The notes below the pieces were generated by a model. That model was not told where the DNA came from. It did not search any database and was given only the letters and a program-made list of their open reading frames with translations. A stretch of 10,449 bases of DNA, taken from assembly GCA_002730985.1 (NCBI GenBank), contig PCBP01000051.1, positions 1-10,449 on the forward strand, read 5' to 3'. This DNA comes from Flavobacteriales bacterium. GTDB lineage: Bacteria; Bacteroidota; Bacteroidia; Flavobacteriales; BACL11. This document shows, one piece after another, positions 1,428-10,449 of this stretch (position 1 is the stretch's first letter; the number at the start of each line of letters is the position of its first letter). The translations under genes were made by a program, and so were the position numbers.

Positions 1428-3950
1428 ATGAAAACAGAATTTTCAAATAGAATGAAGGATGTATTTACATATGTAAGAGAAGAGGTTCTTAGGTTAGGCG
1501 ACAGTAGTATTGGAGTCGAACATTTATTTTTAGGCATACTAAGGGAAGGAGAAGGGACAGCCATAAGAGTGCTGAAAAATCTTGGTATTAATCCTAAGGA
1601 TTTAAGGGTGATTATTGAGAATAAGATCACAAGAAGAGGCAGCCGAACAAATGCCGAAAAAGACAGTGTCGAATTTAAAAAACAGACTGAAAGAATTCTC
1701 AAAAAGTCTATAATGGAACAGACAAATCTAAACGATACTGAAATTAAAACAATCCATGTTCTACTTGCCATCTTACTAGACCCTAATAATATTGTTACAA
1801 GTTCCTTTGAACACATTCATATTAATTATGAGATTGTCCTTGATGAATACGAAAGAGAAACGGGGAGTAACATCTCATCAAGTCTAGATGATATGGATAA
1901 GATTGAGGATGATGATAACATTTTTGGACCTCCTTCAACTGAAAAATCAAAGGCAATATCAAAAAGCGCAACACCAGTATTAGATAGTTTCGGTAGGGAC
2001 CTCACCCAGTATGCTATAGAAGACAAATTAGACCCTATAGTAGGGAGACAAAAAGAGATTGAAAGAGTGTCACAAATTCTTAGTAGAAGAAAGAAAAACA
2101 ATCCTATACTAGTAGGAGAGCCTGGCGTTGGCAAATCTGCTATTGCAGAAGGGTTAGCTCTAAGAATAGTACAAAAGAAGGTCTCAAGAGTACTCTTTAA
2201 TAAAAGGGTCGTAATGCTTGACCTTGCAGCATTAGTTGCAGGAACAAAGTACAGAGGACAGTTTGAAGAAAGAATGAAGGGAGTGATTAATGAACTAGAG
2301 AAAAACCCTGATATCATTTTATTTATTGACGAAATTCATACTTTAGTAGGAGCCGGAGGTGCTACCGGATCATTAGATGCATCAAACATGTTTAAACCTG
2401 CACTTGCCAGAGGCGAATTACAATGCATCGGCGCAACTACACTAGACGAATACAGACAGCATATTGAAAAAGACGGAGCTCTAGAGAGAAGATTCCAGAA
2501 AGTTATGATTGACCCTACATCTATTGAAGAAACAATAGAGATATTAAACAACATCAAGACAAAATATGAAAAACATCACAATGTAACTTATACTGATGAT
2601 GCTATCCAATCATGTGTAATTCTTACGGATAGATATATGAACGATAGATTCTTGCCAGACAAAGCAATTGATGCATTGGACGAAGCCGGATCTCGTGTTC
2701 ATATTACAAATGTTGAGGCACCAGATCATATTACGAAACTAGAAGCAAAGCTTTCAGATCTCACTAAAAAAAAGAAAGAAGCAATAAAAAAACAGAAATT
2801 TGAAGCTGCTGCCGAACTAAGAGATTCTGAAAAGAAACTTCAAGCTCAATTAACACACGCACAAGATATCTGGGAAAAAGAATTGACACTAAACAAAGAG
2901 ACTGTATCAGAAAACAATGTGGCAGATGTTGTCTCAATAATGACTGGCATACCTGTTAATAGAGTAGCCTCAAAAGAAAGAAAAAAGCTTTCCTTAATGA
3001 CTGATAATATTAAAGAACGAATTATTGGACAAGATGAGGCTGTAGAGAAAGTTGTAAGGGCTATCAGAAGAAATCGTGTTGGACTCAAAGATCCAACTAA
3101 GCCAATTGGATCATTCATCTTTTTAGGGCCTACTGGAGTCGGAAAAACCCAACTAACCAAGGCATTAGCTGAAGAGATATTTGACTCCCAAGAAGCACTT
3201 ATTAGAATTGATATGAGCGAATTTATGGAGAAATTTGCGGTAAGTAGACTGGTTGGAGCTCCCCCAGGATATGTTGGCTACGAAGAGGGAGGGCAGCTAA
3301 CTGAACAAGTTAGAAGAAAACCTTACTCCGTTATTTTACTTGATGAAATTGAGAAAGCACATCCTGATGTGTTTAATCTACTATTACAGGCATTAGATGA
3401 CGGGCAAATGACTGATAGTTTAGGGAGAAAGGTCAGTTTTAAAAACACCATAATCATTATGACATCTAATATTGGCGCAAGAGAGCTAAAAGACTTTGGA
3501 CAAGGAATAGGCTTTAACACTTTATCCAAACAAACAAATAAAGACAATAATAACAAGGGGGTAATCGAAAAAGCATTGAAGAGAGCCTTCTCCCCTGAAT
3601 TTCTAAATAGAATCGATGATATAATTATTTTTAACAGTCTAGACAAAGAAGATATTAATCAAATCATTGATATTGAAATGAACAGCCTATTAAAGCGTAT
3701 TGACACTTTAGGATATATAGTCAGAATATCTAAAAGAGCAAAAGATTTTATTGCCGAAAAAGGATTTGATTCTAAATTTGGAGCAAGACCTCTAAAACGC
3801 GCTATCCAGAAATACTTTGAAGACCCTTTGTCTGAAGAGATTATCAATGCACAAATTAAAGAAGGAGATAATATTAAAGTAAGCTTAAATAAAGAGGAAA
3901 CTAATTTGGAAATTAATATAGTTAAACCAAAAGTAAAAAAAACAACTTAA
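1428..3950 (+). CDS. clpC: ATP-dependent Clp protease ATP-binding subunit ClpC (Hsp100 unfoldase)
   Basis: This 840-residue protein is a cytoplasmic AAA+ unfoldase that feeds substrates to the ClpP peptidase. The N domain (about 4-145) has two Clp-N repeats. The first ATPase module has Walker A GEPGVGKS at 230-237, the pore-loop Tyr275 in KYRG, Walker B ILFIDE at 297-302 and arginines in LERRF near 352-356. A short, Lys-rich coiled-coil middle domain follows at about 435-480; this is ClpC-like and much shorter than in ClpB. The second module has Walker A GPTGVGKT at 567-574, pore loop GYVG at 614-617, Walker B ILLDE at 636-640 and sensor-2 GARPLKR from 785. An IGF tripeptide at 694-696 fits the ClpP-docking loop, so ClpP partnership is expected although no clpP is present here. 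The gene is complete, divergent from gyrA, and overlaps the last codon of the convergent aminotransferase. Confidence 0.96.
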   Translation: MKTEFSNRMKDVFTYVREEVLRLGDSSIGVEHLFLGILREGEGTAIRVLKNLGINPKDLRVIIENKITRRGSRTNAEKDSVEFKKQTERILKKSIMEQTNLNDTEIKTIHVLLAILLDPNNIVTSSFEHIHINYEIVLDEYERETGSNISSSLDDMDKIEDDDNIFGPPSTEKSKAISKSATPVLDSFGRDLTQYAIEDKLDPIVGRQKEIERVSQILSRRKKNNPILVGEPGVGKSAIAEGLALRIVQKKVSRVLFNKRVVMLDLAALVAGTKYRGQFEERMKGVINELEKNPDIILFIDEIHTLVGAGGATGSLDASNMFKPALARGELQCIGATTLDEYRQHIEKDGALERRFQKVMIDPTSIEETIEILNNIKTKYEKHHNVTYTDDAIQSCVILTDRYMNDRFLPDKAIDALDEAGSRVHITNVEAPDHITKLEAKLSDLTKKKKEAIKKQKFEAAAELRDSEKKLQAQLTHAQDIWEKELTLNKETVSENNVADVVSIMTGIPVNRVASKERKKLSLMTDNIKERIIGQDEAVEKVVRAIRRNRVGLKDPTKPIGSFIFLGPTGVGKTQLTKALAEEIFDSQEALIRIDMSEFMEKFAVSRLVGAPPGYVGYEEGGQLTEQVRRKPYSVILLDEIEKAHPDVFNLLLQALDDGQMTDSLGRKVSFKNTIIIMTSNIGARELKDFGQGIGFNTLSKQTNKDNNNKGVIEKALKRAFSPEFLNRIDDIIIFNSLDKEDINQIIDIEMNSLLKRIDTLGYIVRISKRAKDFIAEKGFDSKFGARPLKRAIQKYFEDPLSEEIINAQIKEGDNIKVSLNKEETNLEINIVKPKVKKTT

Positions 3951-4843
3951 AAGGGCAGTCTCTCTCCCTTCTTTTCTGTTAATTCTCTAAATAAAGTTTG
4001 GATTTTACGAAACACCTCTCCTTTATTCTCTATTTTTCTTTTATCAATTTCATTTACTCTAGCTAACTCCCCCATTGTCCCAGTTGTAAAGACTTCATCT
4101 GCATTATAAAGCTGAGTTACTGAGAGATCCTGTTCAAGAATTGGAAACTTGTTCTTTTTGCAAATTTGAAAAATCAAACCTCTAGTTATCCCAGGCAAAC
4201 AGGCCTTAGCAAAAGGTGTGATTAGGACTCCATCTTTTATCATAAATATATTAGTAGAATTTGTTTCAGCTACAAATCCGTCTAGATCAAGCATTAGAGC
4301 ATCATCAGCACCAGCATGATTAGCTTCAATTTTTGCTAAAATGTTATTTATTAGATTAGCATGATGTATTTTCGAATCTAAACATAAAGGTGAGTTTCTT
4401 CTAATACTAGATGTGACTAAACATAAATCCTTACCATAAAAGATTGGGGGTTTCCATTCAGCTAGTACAATTAGAGAGCAACCAAATTGATTTAACACTG
4501 GATTCATCCCTGAAGTAATCTTTTCTCCTCTGGTAAGAGTTAACCTGATATGAGCATCATCCTCCATTCTATTAGCTTCAAGTGTAGAAAAAACAGCATT
4601 TCTAACCTCTATAAGACAAGGAATATTTGTAAAGGCCATGCTTTTTGCAGACTCCACTAGTCTATTCAGGTGCTCCTCAAAGCAAAAAATCCTGCTTTTA
4701 TATACTCTTATCCCTTCCCAAACAGCATCTCCTCCCTGTACCGCACTATCAAAGACAGATATCTTTGCGTGATCTCTATGAAGCAGTTTGCCATTAATCC
4801 AAACTTTAATATCTTTATTTCTCTTATCAAATTTTTGTATCAT
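3947..4843 (-). CDS. Class IV (fold-type IV) PLP aminotransferase, substrate unknown
   Basis: A 298-residue enzyme of the BCAT / D-amino-acid transaminase superfamily. The N-terminal part has the AVWEGIRVY segment (40-48), as in branched-chain aminotransferases. The likely PLP-binding lysine is Lys158 in DSKIHHANLINN. Glu193 in VAETNSTNIF, the phosphate-binding LPGITR at 216-221 and TTGTMGE at 253-259 complete the cofactor site, so catalysis looks intact. A general homology call would be branched-chain aminotransferase, but no ilv or leu gene is nearby. The closest relatives I recall are the C-terminal domains of plant 'BCAT-like' fusion proteins. The start overlaps the stop of the upstream sulfotransferase-like gene as ATGA, implying translational coupling and shared function. 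The stop overlaps that of clpC. The superfamily is secure; substrate and pathway are unknown. Confidence 0.9.
   Translation of the reverse strand: MIQKFDKRNKDIKVWINGKLLHRDHAKISVFDSAVQGGDAVWEGIRVYKSRIFCFEEHLNRLVESAKSMAFTNIPCLIEVRNAVFSTLEANRMEDDAHIRLTLTRGEKITSGMNPVLNQFGCSLIVLAEWKPPIFYGKDLCLVTSSIRRNSPLCLDSKIHHANLINNILAKIEANHAGADDALMLDLDGFVAETNSTNIFMIKDGVLITPFAKACLPGITRGLIFQICKKNKFPILEQDLSVTQLYNADEVFTTGTMGELARVNEIDKRKIENKGEVFRKIQTLFRELTEKKGERLPF
3951..3976 (+). terminator. Weak possible terminator for clpC, inside the opposing gene
   Basis: AAGGG (3951-3955) and CCCTT (3966-3970) can pair across a 10-base loop directly after the clpC stop, followed by the short T-rich run CTTTTC. The stem has only 5 pairs and the U-run is poor. 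It is the only hairpin I see here, because the convergent genes leave no intergenic space; it lies in the 3' coding end of the aminotransferase. Confidence 0.22.
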
Positions 4844-5556
4844 AATTGTATTGATTTAACAGTTAAAAACTCATAATAAGGAAGACACTCCCTAGATAGC
4901 TCCAAATTACTCTCTCTAAGTATAATATTCTGTATTTCATAAGGATGAAAACCCGTGGAATTATGAATATTTTTATACCAATACTTTGCCCAGACACCAT
5001 CTTCCTTTATTCCTCCTCTCTTCCACGTCAACATATTCTTGTCAAAAGATATATCTAAAAGAAGACAAATCTTTCTAAGAATCAGTTCTGGATTCTGTAA
5101 TAAATATTTTGCATCTAAGACAATAGGAGTTTCGCCCCTGCTCTCCAGATCTAAATATAACTCATATTGCTTTTTGATGCCAATATCATCTATGGATGGA
5201 TTTGCAATAATTTTGCTATATGAATAAATAATCTCTTGAGGATTCCTAATAAAAATAATATTCTTAACCGATGACAAGAATTGGGTGTTTATTCCAACCA
5301 GAAAATGAGTCATTAATTTATGGAATAACAACTTTTTACTCTTCTGTAAAATAACTTCTTTAACAACCTTATTACCATTGTTATCTAAAGTAGCTAGAAC
5401 CAGATCTCTTGCGGGATGATTAGCTCCGCTTACTTTAAGGTAGTGTGCATAAAGAGGCTCATCAAATACAGAAGTGTCTTCTCGTTGAGCAAATGCATAC
5501 ATTAATGCTGTAGAGACATTTCTGGGACAAGACCATAAACAAATTACCTTATTCAT
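4840..5556 (-). CDS. Sulfotransferase-like P-loop protein, partner of the class IV aminotransferase
   Basis: A 238-residue, probably cytoplasmic protein with no signal peptide or membrane segment. The N-terminal SCPRNVSTALMYAFAQR (9-25) sits where PAPS-dependent sulfotransferases have their 5'-phosphosulfate loop, just after the first beta strand. DEPLYAHYL (32-40) follows. FIRNPQEIIYSYSK (102-115) resembles the 3'-phosphate-binding strand and helix, with Arg104 and a Ser at the usual places. The C-terminal EDGVWAKYWYKNIHNSTGF (185-203) is a distinctive conserved-looking block. The 5' loop differs from the classical PKSGTT form, so PAPS binding is plausible but not shown. It precedes and overlaps the aminotransferase by 4 bases. 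It begins 15 nt after the U-run of the fabI terminator, and no convincing promoter of its own was found; it may depend on read-through. No activity is claimed. Confidence 0.8.
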   Translation of the reverse strand: MNKVICLWSCPRNVSTALMYAFAQREDTSVFDEPLYAHYLKVSGANHPARDLVLATLDNNGNKVVKEVILQKSKKLLFHKLMTHFLVGINTQFLSSVKNIIFIRNPQEIIYSYSKIIANPSIDDIGIKKQYELYLDLESRGETPIVLDAKYLLQNPELILRKICLLLDISFDKNMLTWKRGGIKEDGVWAKYWYKNIHNSTGFHPYEIQNIILRESNLELSRECLPYYEFLTVKSIQL

Positions 5557-5564
5557 ATTTTTTT

Positions 5565-5597
5565 AAAACAAAAAAGGAAGAATCTACTCTCCCTTTT
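5565..5597 (-). terminator. Intrinsic terminator of the fabI transcript
   Basis: In the minus-strand RNA, AAAAGGGAGA pairs with UCUUCCUUUU over 10 positions (one G-U wobble) around the 6-nt loop GUAGAU. The stem runs into UUUUUUGUUUU. It lies 26 bases after the fabI stop. On the plus strand the wobble becomes an A-C mismatch, so the structure is directed to the minus transcript. It separates the rpoZ-fabI run from the downstream sulfotransferase-like gene. Confidence 0.7.
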
Positions 5598-5615
5598 ATA
5601 TATTAACTAATATAT
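5598..5615. repeat. Perfect 18-base AT palindrome between fabI and its terminator
   Basis: ATATATTA-AC-TAATATAT is an exact 8-base inverted repeat with a 2-base centre. It directly abuts the terminator stem and ends 7 bases from the fabI stop. It could be a first, weak RNA hairpin ahead of the terminator, or a protein site for the gene starting at 5556. It consists only of A and T apart from one central base, so chance is not excluded. Confidence 0.4.
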
Positions 5616-5622
5616 CAAAATC

Positions 5623-6459
5623 TTATCCTTTTTTCTCATCTTCTATTACTTTCATGTATGTATCCATTGCCGTCTCACTCATGCCAGTAAATGAGAAGCC
5701 GCCATCATGAAATAAGTTTTGCATAGTCACTTTCTTTGAATAGTCAGAAAATAATGAGATGCAATAATCAGCACACTCATCAGCTGACGCATTCCCTAAA
5801 GGAGATAAATCATTAGCAAACCTATAGAAGCCATCAAAACCAGCGACCCCACTACCAGCAGTAGTCTCAGTTGGAGACTGAGAGATAGTATTTACCCTTA
5901 CCTTCCTTCTTAATCCATAATGATAACCAAAACTTCTAGCAATAGACTCCAAAACAGCCTTATTATCTGCCATGTCATTATAGGTATGAAATACTCTCTG
6001 TGCGGCAATATATGAGAGCCCTATAACAGACCCCCACTCATTTAAAGCATCTAGCTCCCAAGCAGCTTGCATGGTTTTATGAAATGACATTGCTGACACA
6101 TCATACCCCTTCATGGTCCAATCATAGTTTTGCTTATAGTAAGGCCTTCCTTTCCTAACATTTACTGACATTCCAATAGAATGAAGCACAAAATCAATCT
6201 TACCACCGAGCTCTAACATTGCACCTTCATAAAGCGACTTTAGATCTTCCATTGAAGTAGCATCAGCAGGTATAACTTTAGAACCTGTTTTATTAGCCAG
6301 TTCTTTAATATCTCCCATACGCAAAGCAATAGGAGCATTTGTTAAAACAAATTTAGCTCCCTCATTGTGAGCATGTTCAGCAACTTTCCAAGCAATAGAC
6401 TTATTGTCCAATGCTCCGAAGATAACACCTCTCTTTCCTTTTAAAATATTGTTTGCCAT
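5623..6459 (-). CDS. fabI: Enoyl-[acyl-carrier-protein] reductase (NADH) FabI
   Basis: FabI performs the last step of each type II fatty acid elongation cycle, reducing trans-2-enoyl-ACP with NAD(P)H in the cytoplasm. The 278-residue protein has the nucleotide-binding start GKRGVIFGALDNKSIAW (8-24), with the alanine and aspartate spacing of divergent SDR enoyl reductases. HSIGM at 93-97 covers the region of E. coli Gly93. Catalytic Tyr150, Tyr160 and Lys167 occur in SYIAAQRVFHTYNDMADNK, matching E. coli Tyr146, Tyr156 and Lys163. The substrate loop region NTISQSPTETTAGSG (190-204) and the C-terminal NLFHDGGFSFTG complete the fold. The segment after HSIGM and the MADNK form are typical of Bacteroidota FabI. 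It lies 29 bases after recN with its own putative -7 box and ends before a strong terminator. It is the expected triclosan target class; no resistance change was identified. Confidence 0.97.
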   Translation of the reverse strand: MANNILKGKRGVIFGALDNKSIAWKVAEHAHNEGAKFVLTNAPIALRMGDIKELANKTGSKVIPADATSMEDLKSLYEGAMLELGGKIDFVLHSIGMSVNVRKGRPYYKQNYDWTMKGYDVSAMSFHKTMQAAWELDALNEWGSVIGLSYIAAQRVFHTYNDMADNKAVLESIARSFGYHYGLRRKVRVNTISQSPTETTAGSGVAGFDGFYRFANDLSPLGNASADECADYCISLFSDYSKKVTMQNLFHDGGFSFTGMSETAMDTYMKVIEDEKKG

Positions 6460-6477
6460 TTTATTTAATTTATTTTA

Positions 6478-6485
6478 CAAATATA
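6478..6485 (-). promoter_or_regulatory. Putative fabI promoter, -7 box TATATTTG
   Basis: On the minus strand TATATTTG matches TAnnTTTG exactly and lies in the short recN-fabI spacer, 18 bases before the fabI ATG. That predicts a leader of only about 12 nt. The -33 element is poor: TGTT (rc of AACA at 6502-6505) at about the right distance, inside the last recN codons. It would let fabI be expressed apart from recN and the upstream genes. Confidence 0.42.
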
Positions 6486-6488
6486 AAA

Positions 6489-8126
6489 TTATTGACTTAA
6501 TAACACCCTCGCATTCTCAAATGCCTCTGATGTAACTTCTTTTCCACTTAATAATTTTGCAATCTCCTCTATCCTAGCTTGTTTATCTAAATTTTTTACA
6601 TTTGAAACAGTTTCAATACCAATAACTGATTTTACTACCTTAAGATGTTCATCTGCCTTTGAGGCAATCTGAGGCAAATGAGAAATTGCTATAAGCTGAG
6701 TTGACTTACTAATTTCCTGCATCATTTTCCCCATTAATGCTGCTATCTCTCCACTAACCCCTATATCTATTTCGTCAAAAACTAGAATATCTACTTCCGA
6801 AATTGTTGCAGAAATATACTTTATGGCCAACATAAGTCTTGATAATTCACCACCAGAAGCCACTTTTGACACCTCCAGTAATTCACCTCCTCTATTTGCT
6901 GAAAAAAGGAAAGATATTGATGTATTTCCAAATTTATGATAACTATCACTCACATTAATAGCCGCCATAAAGTTTGCATAAGGCATTCCTAAATTTATTA
7001 AATTGCTTTCTACCTCTTTCTTTAGAAAAGGGAGAATATTATTACGTTTAATATTTAAGTCAGATGCCTTCCCTTGCAAAACCAAAAATTGATCTTCTAT
7101 CTCAATCTTCTTGTTTTTCAACTCCATCTCAGATGATAATGAAAGTTTAATTCTGGATTTAATCTCCTGCTGATAAATAAGTAAGCCCGCCACAGTATCC
7201 TTTCTGTGTTTTTGCAATAATTTATTAATTACATCTAACCTATTATTAAGAACAAGCAACTCAGACGGATCCAATCTAAGTTTGTTGTCTAGAGAAGCTA
7301 GATTAGAACTCACATCATTTAATTCAATAATAACACTCGCTACTCTTTCATAAAGCTCAGTAAAAGTTTCAAATTCCAACAACTTTCTTTTTACAGAAGA
7401 TAACTGAGATAAAATACCCTGCTCATTATTTAAATATTTCTCACTCTCAGAAACTACATTCATAACCCCTTCAATATTTTCTAAAATTGAGATCTTCTGC
7501 TCAAGCTTCTCTTTCTCCCCAGCTTCTAAATTGCAATTCTCCAACTCCTCAAGTTGGTACTGCAAAAAGTCTAATTCATTCTCTGGCAAACTTCCTGATC
7601 TCTGGATAAGATCTAACTCCATCTTGAGCTGATTGTATTTCTGTAATTCTTCCTGATATGAAAGAAGCTCCTTTTCTGATTTAGCTAATCTGTCAATTAA
7701 AGCGAACTGGGCAGTCTCATCTTTTAATAGAATTGACTGATGCTGAGCATGAATCTCAATTATCTTATTTCGAAACTCTGATAGAACATTAAGTAAAACC
7801 GGAGTGTCATTTATAAAAGCTCTACTTTTCCCATCAGAATTAAATTCTCTCCTAATAACCGTTAATTCTTGAAAATCAAGATCATGCTTCTCGAAAAAAT
7901 CCAGCTTTGATTTTTGGATACTAAACTCTCCCTCAATTATTGTCTTGGCAGAAGTCTTATCTATAGAATACCTCTCTATTCTTTTGCCTAATAGCAATGT
8001 CAGTGCATCAAGCATAACTGATTTTCCAGCACCTGTTTCACCAGAGATAACAGTAAAACCTTTTTTGAAATCTATACTTACATCTTTTAATAAAGTGTAG
8101 TTCCTAATTTTAAGGTTTCTAATCAT
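6489..8126 (-). CDS. recN: DNA repair protein RecN (SMC-like ATPase)
   Basis: RecN is a cytoplasmic SMC-family ATPase recruited to DNA double-strand breaks to support RecA-dependent repair. The 545-residue product has the SMC plan. The N-terminal head carries Walker A GETGAGKS (29-36) and the RecN-type SRAFINDTPV (101-110). The Q-loop region IEIHAQHQ follows at 123-130. Two coiled-coil arms rich in Leu, Glu and Lys span about 145-370. The C-terminal head has signature SGGELSR (424-430), Walker B LVFDEID (448-454) and the H-loop His483 in AISHLPQIASKAD. Length is typical. The start overlaps the DUF4835 stop as ATGA. It is preceded by GGAGGAG four bases upstream, an unusually good Shine-Dalgarno match for this phylum. 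No SOS box was recognised, and expression from the upstream operon is likely. Confidence 0.97.
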   Translation of the reverse strand: MIRNLKIRNYTLLKDVSIDFKKGFTVISGETGAGKSVMLDALTLLLGKRIERYSIDKTSAKTIIEGEFSIQKSKLDFFEKHDLDFQELTVIRREFNSDGKSRAFINDTPVLLNVLSEFRNKIIEIHAQHQSILLKDETAQFALIDRLAKSEKELLSYQEELQKYNQLKMELDLIQRSGSLPENELDFLQYQLEELENCNLEAGEKEKLEQKISILENIEGVMNVVSESEKYLNNEQGILSQLSSVKRKLLEFETFTELYERVASVIIELNDVSSNLASLDNKLRLDPSELLVLNNRLDVINKLLQKHRKDTVAGLLIYQQEIKSRIKLSLSSEMELKNKKIEIEDQFLVLQGKASDLNIKRNNILPFLKKEVESNLINLGMPYANFMAAINVSDSYHKFGNTSISFLFSANRGGELLEVSKVASGGELSRLMLAIKYISATISEVDILVFDEIDIGVSGEIAALMGKMMQEISKSTQLIAISHLPQIASKADEHLKVVKSVIGIETVSNVKNLDKQARIEEIAKLLSGKEVTSEAFENARVLLSQ

Positions 8127-9037: not shown

Positions 9038-10234
9038 TTAGTATAATTCTATAATCTTTGTAATAATATCTTTAGCAACTTCTGACTTATCTTTTAACTC
9101 AAAATCAAAGATATTATTTTTTCTGTCAATAATAGTAATCTTATTTGTACTATGCCCAAAACCAGACCCTCTATCATTTAACGAATTAAGCACAATCATA
9201 TCAAGATCCTTATTTTTAAGTTTTTCTTTAGCATTTCTTAATTCATCTTTTGTCTCTAAAGCAAAACCAACTATAAATTGTTTTTCTGTCCTTTTTGATG
9301 CCAAAACTGACAAGATATCAATAGTTCTTAGAAGCGGTATTGTAAGATCTTTATCTGTTTTTTTAATCTTATCATTTGAAAAAGAACTAGGCTTATAATC
9401 TGAAACAGCTGCAGTGAATATTGATATATCTGAACTTGGAAAGCAATTATCTGCCATCTTAAACATTTCATTAGCCGATTCTACCTTATGCACAATAATA
9501 TTAGAATGTTCTACATCAATATGTGAGGGGCCCAGTATAAGTGTAACCTTTGCCCCATTATTAGCACATTCTAAAGCTAATGAAATACCCATTTTGCCTG
9601 AAGATCGATTCCCAATAAAACGAACAGGGTCTATTGCCTCATAAGTGGGGCCTGCTGTAATTAACACTTCTTTACCTGACAACAACAATTTCGTGGATAG
9701 ATCTAAATTAATGTGTTCAATAATCTCCGAAGGTTCAGCCATCCTACCTTCCCCAACTAAACCGCTAGCAAGTTCTCCAAAACCAGAAGGAATAAGAATG
9801 TCCCCAAAAGACTTCAGCTTCTCAATATTCTTGACTGTAGTTGGATGCCTATACATATCTAAATCCATAGCAGGCGCAAAATAAACAGGACATTTTGCTG
9901 ACAAATAAGTTGCTAAAAGTAGATTGTCACATTCTCCAGTTGTCATCTTAGCCATAGTATTTGCAGTAAGCGGAGCGATAACCATAAAATCAGCCCATAA
10001 ACCCAGATCAACATGACTATTCCATTCTCCACTTTCGGCATCAACCATTTCTGAAAGAACTGGATTCTCAGATAAAGTAGCAAGTGTAAAAGGAGCAACA
10101 AAAAGTAAAGAAGCCTCAGTTTGAATTACCTTAACTGAAGCTCCTTCTTTCTTAAACAAACGCACAAGCTCTACACTCTTATAAGCTGCAATACTAGCTG
10201 ATACTCCTATTAATACCTTTTTTCCTTTAAGCAT
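9038..10234 (-). CDS. coaBC: Bifunctional phosphopantothenoylcysteine decarboxylase / phosphopantothenate-cysteine ligase CoaBC
   Basis: CoaBC makes 4'-phosphopantetheine in coenzyme A synthesis: the C-terminal CoaB half joins 4'-phosphopantothenate to cysteine using CTP, and the N-terminal flavoprotein CoaC half decarboxylates the product. Residues 1-180 show the FMN-binding GVSASIAAYK (10-19), active-site His74 in WNSHVDLGLW, the PLTANTMAK stretch (88-96) and PAMDLDMYRHP (121-131). CoaB spans about 188-398, with AGPTYEAIDPVRFIGNRSSG (194-213), FTAAVSDYKP (273-282), KIKK near 289 and GFALET (323-328). The length of 398 is normal. Two residues differ from E. coli: the motif Asn125 equivalent is Asp124, and the Cys158 equivalent is Ser157 in GELASGL. 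I believe both are usual in Bacteroidota. The ATG overlaps the end of rpoZ by 8 bases. Confidence 0.96.
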   Translation of the reverse strand: MLKGKKVLIGVSASIAAYKSVELVRLFKKEGASVKVIQTEASLLFVAPFTLATLSENPVLSEMVDAESGEWNSHVDLGLWADFMVIAPLTANTMAKMTTGECDNLLLATYLSAKCPVYFAPAMDLDMYRHPTTVKNIEKLKSFGDILIPSGFGELASGLVGEGRMAEPSEIIEHINLDLSTKLLLSGKEVLITAGPTYEAIDPVRFIGNRSSGKMGISLALECANNGAKVTLILGPSHIDVEHSNIIVHKVESANEMFKMADNCFPSSDISIFTAAVSDYKPSSFSNDKIKKTDKDLTIPLLRTIDILSVLASKRTEKQFIVGFALETKDELRNAKEKLKNKDLDMIVLNSLNDRGSGFGHSTNKITIIDRKNNIFDFELKDKSEVAKDIITKIIELY

Positions 10235-10449
10235 CTATGTCTTCATCTTCCGACTTATCCCCATCTCTCATGTAAAGAGCATCATCTAAAAGTTCTTGCA
10301 TTGCAATAGCCCAAGGTTTTGGCAAGCCTTCATAAAACTTTGATACTGCAATCTGCTCTTTATTCTCAAAGACTTCATCAAGTTGGTCCTGTGAGATTTC
10401 GAATTCTTTTAATTTCTCCATTAACTCTTCTTTCATATTTTCATTTACC
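10227..10449 (-). CDS. rpoZ: DNA-directed RNA polymerase omega subunit, Bacteroidota type, C-terminal part (5' end outside window)
   Basis: Omega is a small RNA polymerase subunit that helps assemble and stabilise beta'. The visible part contains EVFENKEQIAVSKFYEGLPK followed by an acidic tail, a pattern I associate with the C-terminus of Bacteroidota omega-like proteins, and it sits directly before coaBC as expected. The frame remains open upstream of the Met at 10436 (preceding codons V-N-E-N) to the window edge. That Met is therefore probably internal: the family is around 100 residues and its N-terminal half should lie beyond 10449. Treating the 69-residue ORF as a complete gene would be wrong. 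The stop overlaps the coaBC start (ATGCTTAA shared). The conserved omega core that would settle the call is not in this window. Confidence 0.8.
   Translation of the reverse strand, partial: VNENMKEELMEKLKEFEISQDQLDEVFENKEQIAVSKFYEGLPKPWAIAMQELLDDALYMRDGDKSEDEDIDA

Follow-up and report, generated by a model that had tools for sequence, protein, structure and literature searches.

The window analyzed here, meaning the whole stretch of DNA under study, is a 10,449-nucleotide contig of a Flavobacteriales bacterium, from a genome of 1.37 Mb that is 68% complete. On its reverse strand, two overlapping genes encode a PF19798 sulfotransferase (ST) and a protein with the class IV aminotransferase fold (AT). 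The pair and the features that border it are as follows, where ORF denotes an open reading frame.

4840-5556, reverse strand: ST, PF19798 sulfotransferase, 238 amino acids (aa); ORF and Pfam match, with motifs P11 R12 S15 T16, D32-E33, and R104...S112
3947-4843, reverse strand: AT, class IV aminotransferase-fold protein, 298 aa; ORF, Pfam match, and alignment, with His160, R61, E193, T220, and T256
4840-4843, reverse strand: ATGA, four bases shared by the ST stop and the AT start; read from the sequence
5572-5597, reverse strand: terminator-like hairpin of 11 pairs with a T tail, between a fabI-like gene and ST; consensus and fold only
1428-3950, forward strand: 840-aa ORF, named clpC in the earlier sequence-only reading, convergent with AT; tail to tail, with a 4-base overlap with the AT end

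The two ORFs and their ATGA overlap lie where an earlier sequence-only reading of this DNA had placed them. That reading had also described the pair as transcribed alone; the hairpin behind the fabI-like gene and the convergent 840-aa ORF are compatible with this, and transcription of ST-AT as a unit of its own is plausible. Three terminator-like sites were found in a scan of positions 3800 to 6600, compared with 1.1 (standard deviation, 1.0) in shuffled sequences, and the hairpin at 5597-5572 folds only modestly better than shuffles (z, -1.55).

A sulfotransferase and an aminotransferase fold without the catalytic lysine

ST belongs to PF19798 (Sulfotransfer_5; E value, 1.5e-43), although a search of NCBIfam returned zero matches and a PDB sequence search with ST alone gave no match up to an E value of 1. 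Its predicted structure (predicted local distance difference test [pLDDT], 96) matches solved sulfotransferases, and the sulfotransferase domains of CurM and of olefin synthase (4gbm and 4gox) are among the closest known systems. Across 65 aligned sequences, P11, R12, S15, T16, and R104 are invariant and S112 is conserved in at least 90%. ST thereby carries both the loop and the R...S motif that we take to bind the 5'-phosphosulfate and the 3'-phosphate, respectively, of 3'-phosphoadenosine 5'-phosphosulfate (PAPS). The window genome also encodes an adenosine 5'-phosphosulfate (APS) kinase (G000:C12:16253-16699; E value, 1.1e-57), and such a kinase is present in 53 of the 55 ST-bearing genomes of the survey described below versus 153 of the 340 others (Fisher p, 1.4e-14, among genomes that are related and thus not independent). 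We infer that ST uses PAPS.

AT has PF01063 (Aminotran_4; E value, 1.9e-46) as its sole Pfam match at 0.01, and its structure matches are also class IV proteins. All 21 of its NCBIfam matches fall under the curated cutoffs, the best being the branched-chain aminotransferase PRK08320, with 250 bits versus the 363 required. AT therefore has the Pfam family and the fold of class IV enzymes of the branched-chain aminotransferase (BCAT) and D-amino acid aminotransferase (DAAT) type, but not the lysine that forms the aldimine with pyridoxal 5'-phosphate (PLP). Canonical branched-chain aminotransferases (5mqz, 5cm0, and 5e25) have this lysine, whereas AT has histidine in its place. The pairwise alignments with the archaeal BCATs 5mqz and 5cm0 are ungapped over the lysine (5mqz, IKSLNYLNNILAKIEAN; window, IHHANLINNILAKIEAN) and assign its position to His160.

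Relatives of AT fall into two subtypes, of which type A includes the window protein. In a multiple alignment of the ORFs of at least 200 aa from loci L001 to L111, with shorter fragments dropped, His occupies the lysine site in all 48 type A sequences, and Asn does so in all 34 of type B. Among AT copies found outside the fetched flanks of ST, 16 have His together with the Glu at position 193 (one of them a fragment) and three have Asn and Thr at these two positions. One canonical BCAT paralogue, L206, has Lys and was correctly told apart; its genome encodes a His copy too (L188). The two other class IV proteins of the window genome have Lys either in this column (L113) or in the column before it (L114, motif GFAKAAGNY). 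The His pair is present in each of the 128 type A fusion proteins checked (see below), 124 as DSKIHHNNL and four as variants. An "aminotransferase-like protein" of Variovorax paradoxus (7z79) has the same fold as AT and likewise lacks the lysine (Asn174); it groups with type B in the tree and has Asn and Ser where type A has His and Glu. A deposited N174K mutant of this protein (9j32) alters the very residue that is aligned here to the PLP lysine, which lends independent support to the assignment. Searches of the literature for 7z79 and 9j32 turned up no relevant paper, the matches concerning the unrelated CYP9J32.

In type A, the rest of the pocket is retained. R61, T220, G255, and E193 are present in 48 of 48 type A sequences, and position 256 is Thr in 44 and Ser in 4; the window AT has R61, T220, G255, T256, and E193. 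By comparison with Escherichia coli BCAT, we take these to be the phosphate-binding residues and, for E193, the Glu that faces the pyridine nitrogen. Because these residues are kept, type A likely has a PLP-like cofactor site that lacks the lysine. Type B keeps the phosphate-cup residues as well (position 256 is Thr in 20 and Ser in 14). Residues common to both subtypes and absent from 5mqz include R23, H98, K108, E129, K131, and D156. In a quick tree of 75 AT sequences, types A and B each form one group (Shimodaira-Hasegawa-like approximate likelihood ratio test [SH-aLRT], 97 and 99, respectively), and the two together are set apart from canonical enzymes (SH-aLRT, 95), a node that is provisional given some very long outgroup branches.

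Pairing across bacterial genomes and fusion in plants

The survey covered 395 genomes (171 genera) of the window's phylum, in which ST and AT positions were joined by coordinates. PF19798 was found in 55 genomes from 25 genera, two of them with weak matches (a fragment in G108 and a match below the cutoff in G147), and an AT relative (E value of 1e-45 or better) was found in 61. AT adjoins ST on the same strand in 51 of the 55 ST genomes, with a largest gap of 1,022 bases. In two others, AT lies elsewhere, about 330 kb away in G231 and on another contig in G203 (43% identical, unclassified), and the two weak ST genomes have no AT relative at 1e-45. The gene order is ST-AT in all 25 pairs with an AT of at least 50% identity (type A) and AT-ST in all 26 pairs with an AT of 38 to 41% identity (type B), where the subtype was called by identity and the active-site residue was read only for those in L001 to L031. 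Since order tracks subtype, ST and AT probably came together on more than one occasion or stayed together despite rearrangement.

In a second set, the best 80 of 577 confirmed loci in named genomes, drawn from at least 591 pattern matches, were examined with flanks of up to 10 kb, many of them shorter. By record title, they span Bacteroidota, Planctomycetota, Poribacteria, Proteobacteria, Chloroflexota, Verrucomicrobiota, and others, with Fulvivirga kasyanovii and Winogradskyella echinorum among the isolates. An AT relative lies within the fetched DNA in 58 loci, five of which have fragments or an AT apart from ST (L067, L069, L084, L104, and L106). Among the genomes of the other 22 loci, 19 have an AT (1e-30 or better) elsewhere, and because some flanks stop at a contig end, a part of the 19 may in fact be linked; at L096, whose genome has the fragment L205, the pair may have been broken. 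Conserved coupling of the two genes is thus borne out, and adjacency is not limited to a few close relatives. Nine Poribacteria loci (L038, L046, L049, L052, L055, L060, L061, L063, and L083) have ST without AT in the fetched flank, and eight of these genomes have AT elsewhere.

Closer to the window, ST was found in 15 of 60 genomes comprising the window genome and its relatives. AT adjoins ST in 11 of the 15, the window included, and lies on another contig in G401 (70% identical); no AT was seen in the fetched DNA of the other three. The pair is patchy within the family yet mostly travels together. One stop codon interrupts the ST match in each of G436:C196 (L185) and G421:C3 (L186), perhaps a sign of decay. 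G395, the second genome of the window's genus (94% complete), has no ST, and the better matching of its class IV proteins (L151) shares just 24% identity with AT.

The sequence-only reading had compared the pair with Arabidopsis proteins annotated as branched-chain aminotransferase-like ("BCAT-like"), in which the same two domains are fused in the same order, and this homology is borne out in the plant fusions fetched (e.g., Lactuca, Mikania, and Diplodiscus). The N-terminal domain of the plant proteins is related to the 4840-5556 product, with 38 to 41% identity; the AT part is 54% identical (P0017) and has the same His at the lysine site. The plant proteins are single chains, whereas the window has two genes; with PF19798, PF01063, and His at the lysine site split over these genes, the window pair and the plant proteins belong, by sequence, to the same family. 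A query joining ST and AT, with scores taken over the ST part alone, gave 29 proteins whose length would suit a fusion, of which 14 have both domains. ST-AT fusions occur in Lactuca, Mikania, Diplodiscus, the charophyte Mesostigma, the chytrid Gonapodya, and bacterial proteins of 539 aa, and in the planctomycete locus L078, both domains lie in one ORF; a search with the Mesostigma protein gave 5,623 matches, of which the best 120 were listed. The 5' motif pattern has no match in 18 of the 128 type A fusions. A structural model of a fused homologue (pLDDT, 92; predicted template modeling score, 0.70) does not fix the arrangement of the domains. The data do not reject a common origin for the type A fusions of plants and bacteria (approximately unbiased test p, 0.23). 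The chytrid protein P0027 joins ST to a type B domain, and at least two fusion events are therefore likely. Three proteins that seemed to be "reverse fusions" (P0025, P0026, and P0029) were discarded as evidence because their sequences look frameshifted; the lysine site is Asn in P0025 and P0029 and unreadable in P0026.

A function for the plant fusion was not found in the literature under the protein name, the two Arabidopsis loci, PF19798, or the domain combinations, in a search that mostly left out subscription journals, so that earlier work is possible. The protein name occurs in 12 papers, in one of them within a table of proteomics hits. PF19798 is listed in two papers. One of these, a 2025 survey of plant sulfotransferases, includes it among its nine profiles, and the word "aminotransferase" is absent from its main text (PMC12506393). 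The link between ST and AT thus seems to have escaped notice in that survey.

Possible roles of the pair

We favor, with middling confidence, a reading in which ST is a PAPS-dependent sulfotransferase for small molecules and AT is its lysine-less, probably histidine-based partner that uses PLP or pyridoxamine 5'-phosphate (PMP), the two sharing a substrate. The two proteins would work as a unit on one small metabolite: ST would move a sulfuryl group from PAPS, and AT would handle an amino acid- or keto acid-like substrate or product of ST. Type A proteins, in the window and in plants, most likely hold PLP or PMP noncovalently, with His160 as the acid/base in place of the lysine. The earlier suggestion of a shared reaction path is well supported. 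Its wording as a sulfotransferase and a transaminase is probably the wrong chemistry, given the loss of the lysine, which is replaced in every aligned pair member that covers the site; without it, AT is unlikely to act as an ordinary transaminase.

The nucleotide-sugar 3-dehydratases ColD, E1, and SpnQ have, like AT, a His in place of the lysine of their aminotransferase relatives, and in ColD and E1, this replacement goes with PMP-dependent dehydration, according to a published account (PMC8987622). This offers a model for type A in principle and does not imply kinship. AT shares the replacement, and no homology to these aspartate aminotransferase-type (fold I) dehydratases was found. They are related to another aminotransferase group, fold type I; their substrates are nucleotide sugars, and we know of no sulfotransferase partner for them.

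Several observations weigh against the favored reading. An AT-like match without ST occurs in eight survey genomes, all of one family: seven copies have 53 to 55% identity (type A), with His in the five that were read, and one has 37% and is of ambiguous type. Type A can thus serve without ST. Conversely, three of the 22 named ST genomes without a neighboring AT have none at 1e-30, and in three single proteins ST is joined to other domains (GNAT in P0012, ASCH in P0016, and luciferase-like in P0028), joins that are either real or assembly artifacts. In type B, Thr replaces Glu193 in 34 of 34 sequences, and in the chytrid fusion P0027, also of type B, Ser occupies the lysine site. In a quick ST tree of 119 sequences, the partner switches between types A and B about five times, which suggests that the two are interchangeable; if both serve one function, PLP chemistry may be beside the point. 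The His segment of the fusion model (395-399) has a pLDDT under 50.

Type B has neither the Lys nor the Glu and is nonetheless found with the same family of ST, which makes a binding role for AT, or one without a cofactor, a serious rival, though one we consider rather unlikely. AT would then be a catalytically dead or ligand-sensing subunit that performs no chemistry itself, binds either the ST acceptor or an amino acid-like ligand, and helps to position or regulate ST. Such a role would suit the loss of the lysine in both subtypes, the swapping of subtypes on the quick ST tree, and the fusions and adjacency, but the conservation of R61, His160, Glu193, T220, and G255 in all 48 type A sequences, and of His and Glu in 16 further copies, goes beyond what a scaffold needs. 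The seven genomes that keep type A without ST also speak against it, as does the permease-like ORF found directly upstream of AT in four of five mapped loci of the AT-only family (f31, Bacteroidota-like; L134, L135, L138, and L140). In L134, the permease (126-1496) is AA_permease_2 by Pfam and is followed by AT at 1501-2403; the permeases of L135, L138, and L140 were assigned by a similar sequence start, and L142 was not resolved. These permeases hint at an amino acid-like ligand for AT.

That AT is an ordinary transaminase after all, with Lys158, two residues before His160, forming the aldimine, appears improbable. Lys158 is offered by the window sequence itself, but at this position 29 of 34 type B sequences have Arg, the type A copy L201 has Thr while His160 stays, and the alignment over the lysine is ungapped against 5mqz and 5cm0. 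It is hardly credible that adjacency is incidental or that of a hitchhiking cassette, with unrelated roles for ST and AT: in its favor, some genomes keep AT alone, and at most 12 of the 80 loci share any third family near ST; against it stand the two opposite gene orders, the fusions, and the genomes in which both genes occur without being adjacent.

A more specific reaction can be imagined and is quite doubtful at present. In this sulfate-activated elimination, ST would sulfate a hydroxyl of a small keto acid- or amino acid-like molecule, turning it into a leaving group, and AT, with noncovalently bound PMP or PLP and His160 as the base, would expel the sulfate (deoxygenation or dehydration) or return an enamine for C-sulfonation. 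Cysteate formation from 2-aminoacrylate as the net reaction is speculation, and a literature search on it gave nothing useful. If elimination were to hold, fold type IV would have arrived independently at ColD-like chemistry, and lineages from marine bacteria to land plants would have retained it.

Returning to the favored reading of a PAPS-dependent ST with a lysine-less partner, the widespread pair probably does something undescribed so far. A protein found from liverworts to cereals carries the annotation of a branched-chain aminotransferase, yet it lacks the catalytic lysine and has a sulfotransferase domain. That the "aminotransferase" label fails in bacteria and plants alike is a more interesting result than the pairing, and the two-gene form in culturable bacteria makes the reaction directly testable.

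Neighboring genes and other features

A third pathway gene was sought in the 80 loci, and the most widespread other family was present in only 12. Among the top 25 clusters, those found in 10 to 12 loci seem, from their representatives, to reflect the shared gene order of Winogradskyella-like flavobacteria. Ten proteins were scanned with Pfam, comprising nine of 90 operon-like neighbors chosen for small gaps plus the L134 permease of the AT-only family. The close neighbors scanned are mixed: a LysE exporter, ROK, Gfo/Idh/MocA, PhyH, an antiporter, DAO, an FMN reductase, and two without a match.

In the window, the fabI-like gene (Pfam and NCBIfam) lies upstream of ST on the same strand, and a DUF4835 gene (Pfam) lies farther up. 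Two further ORFs were recorded.

10227-10436, reverse strand: 69-aa ORF without a match in a Pfam search, upstream of the 398-aa ORF
9038-10234: 398-aa ORF, downstream of the 69-aa ORF
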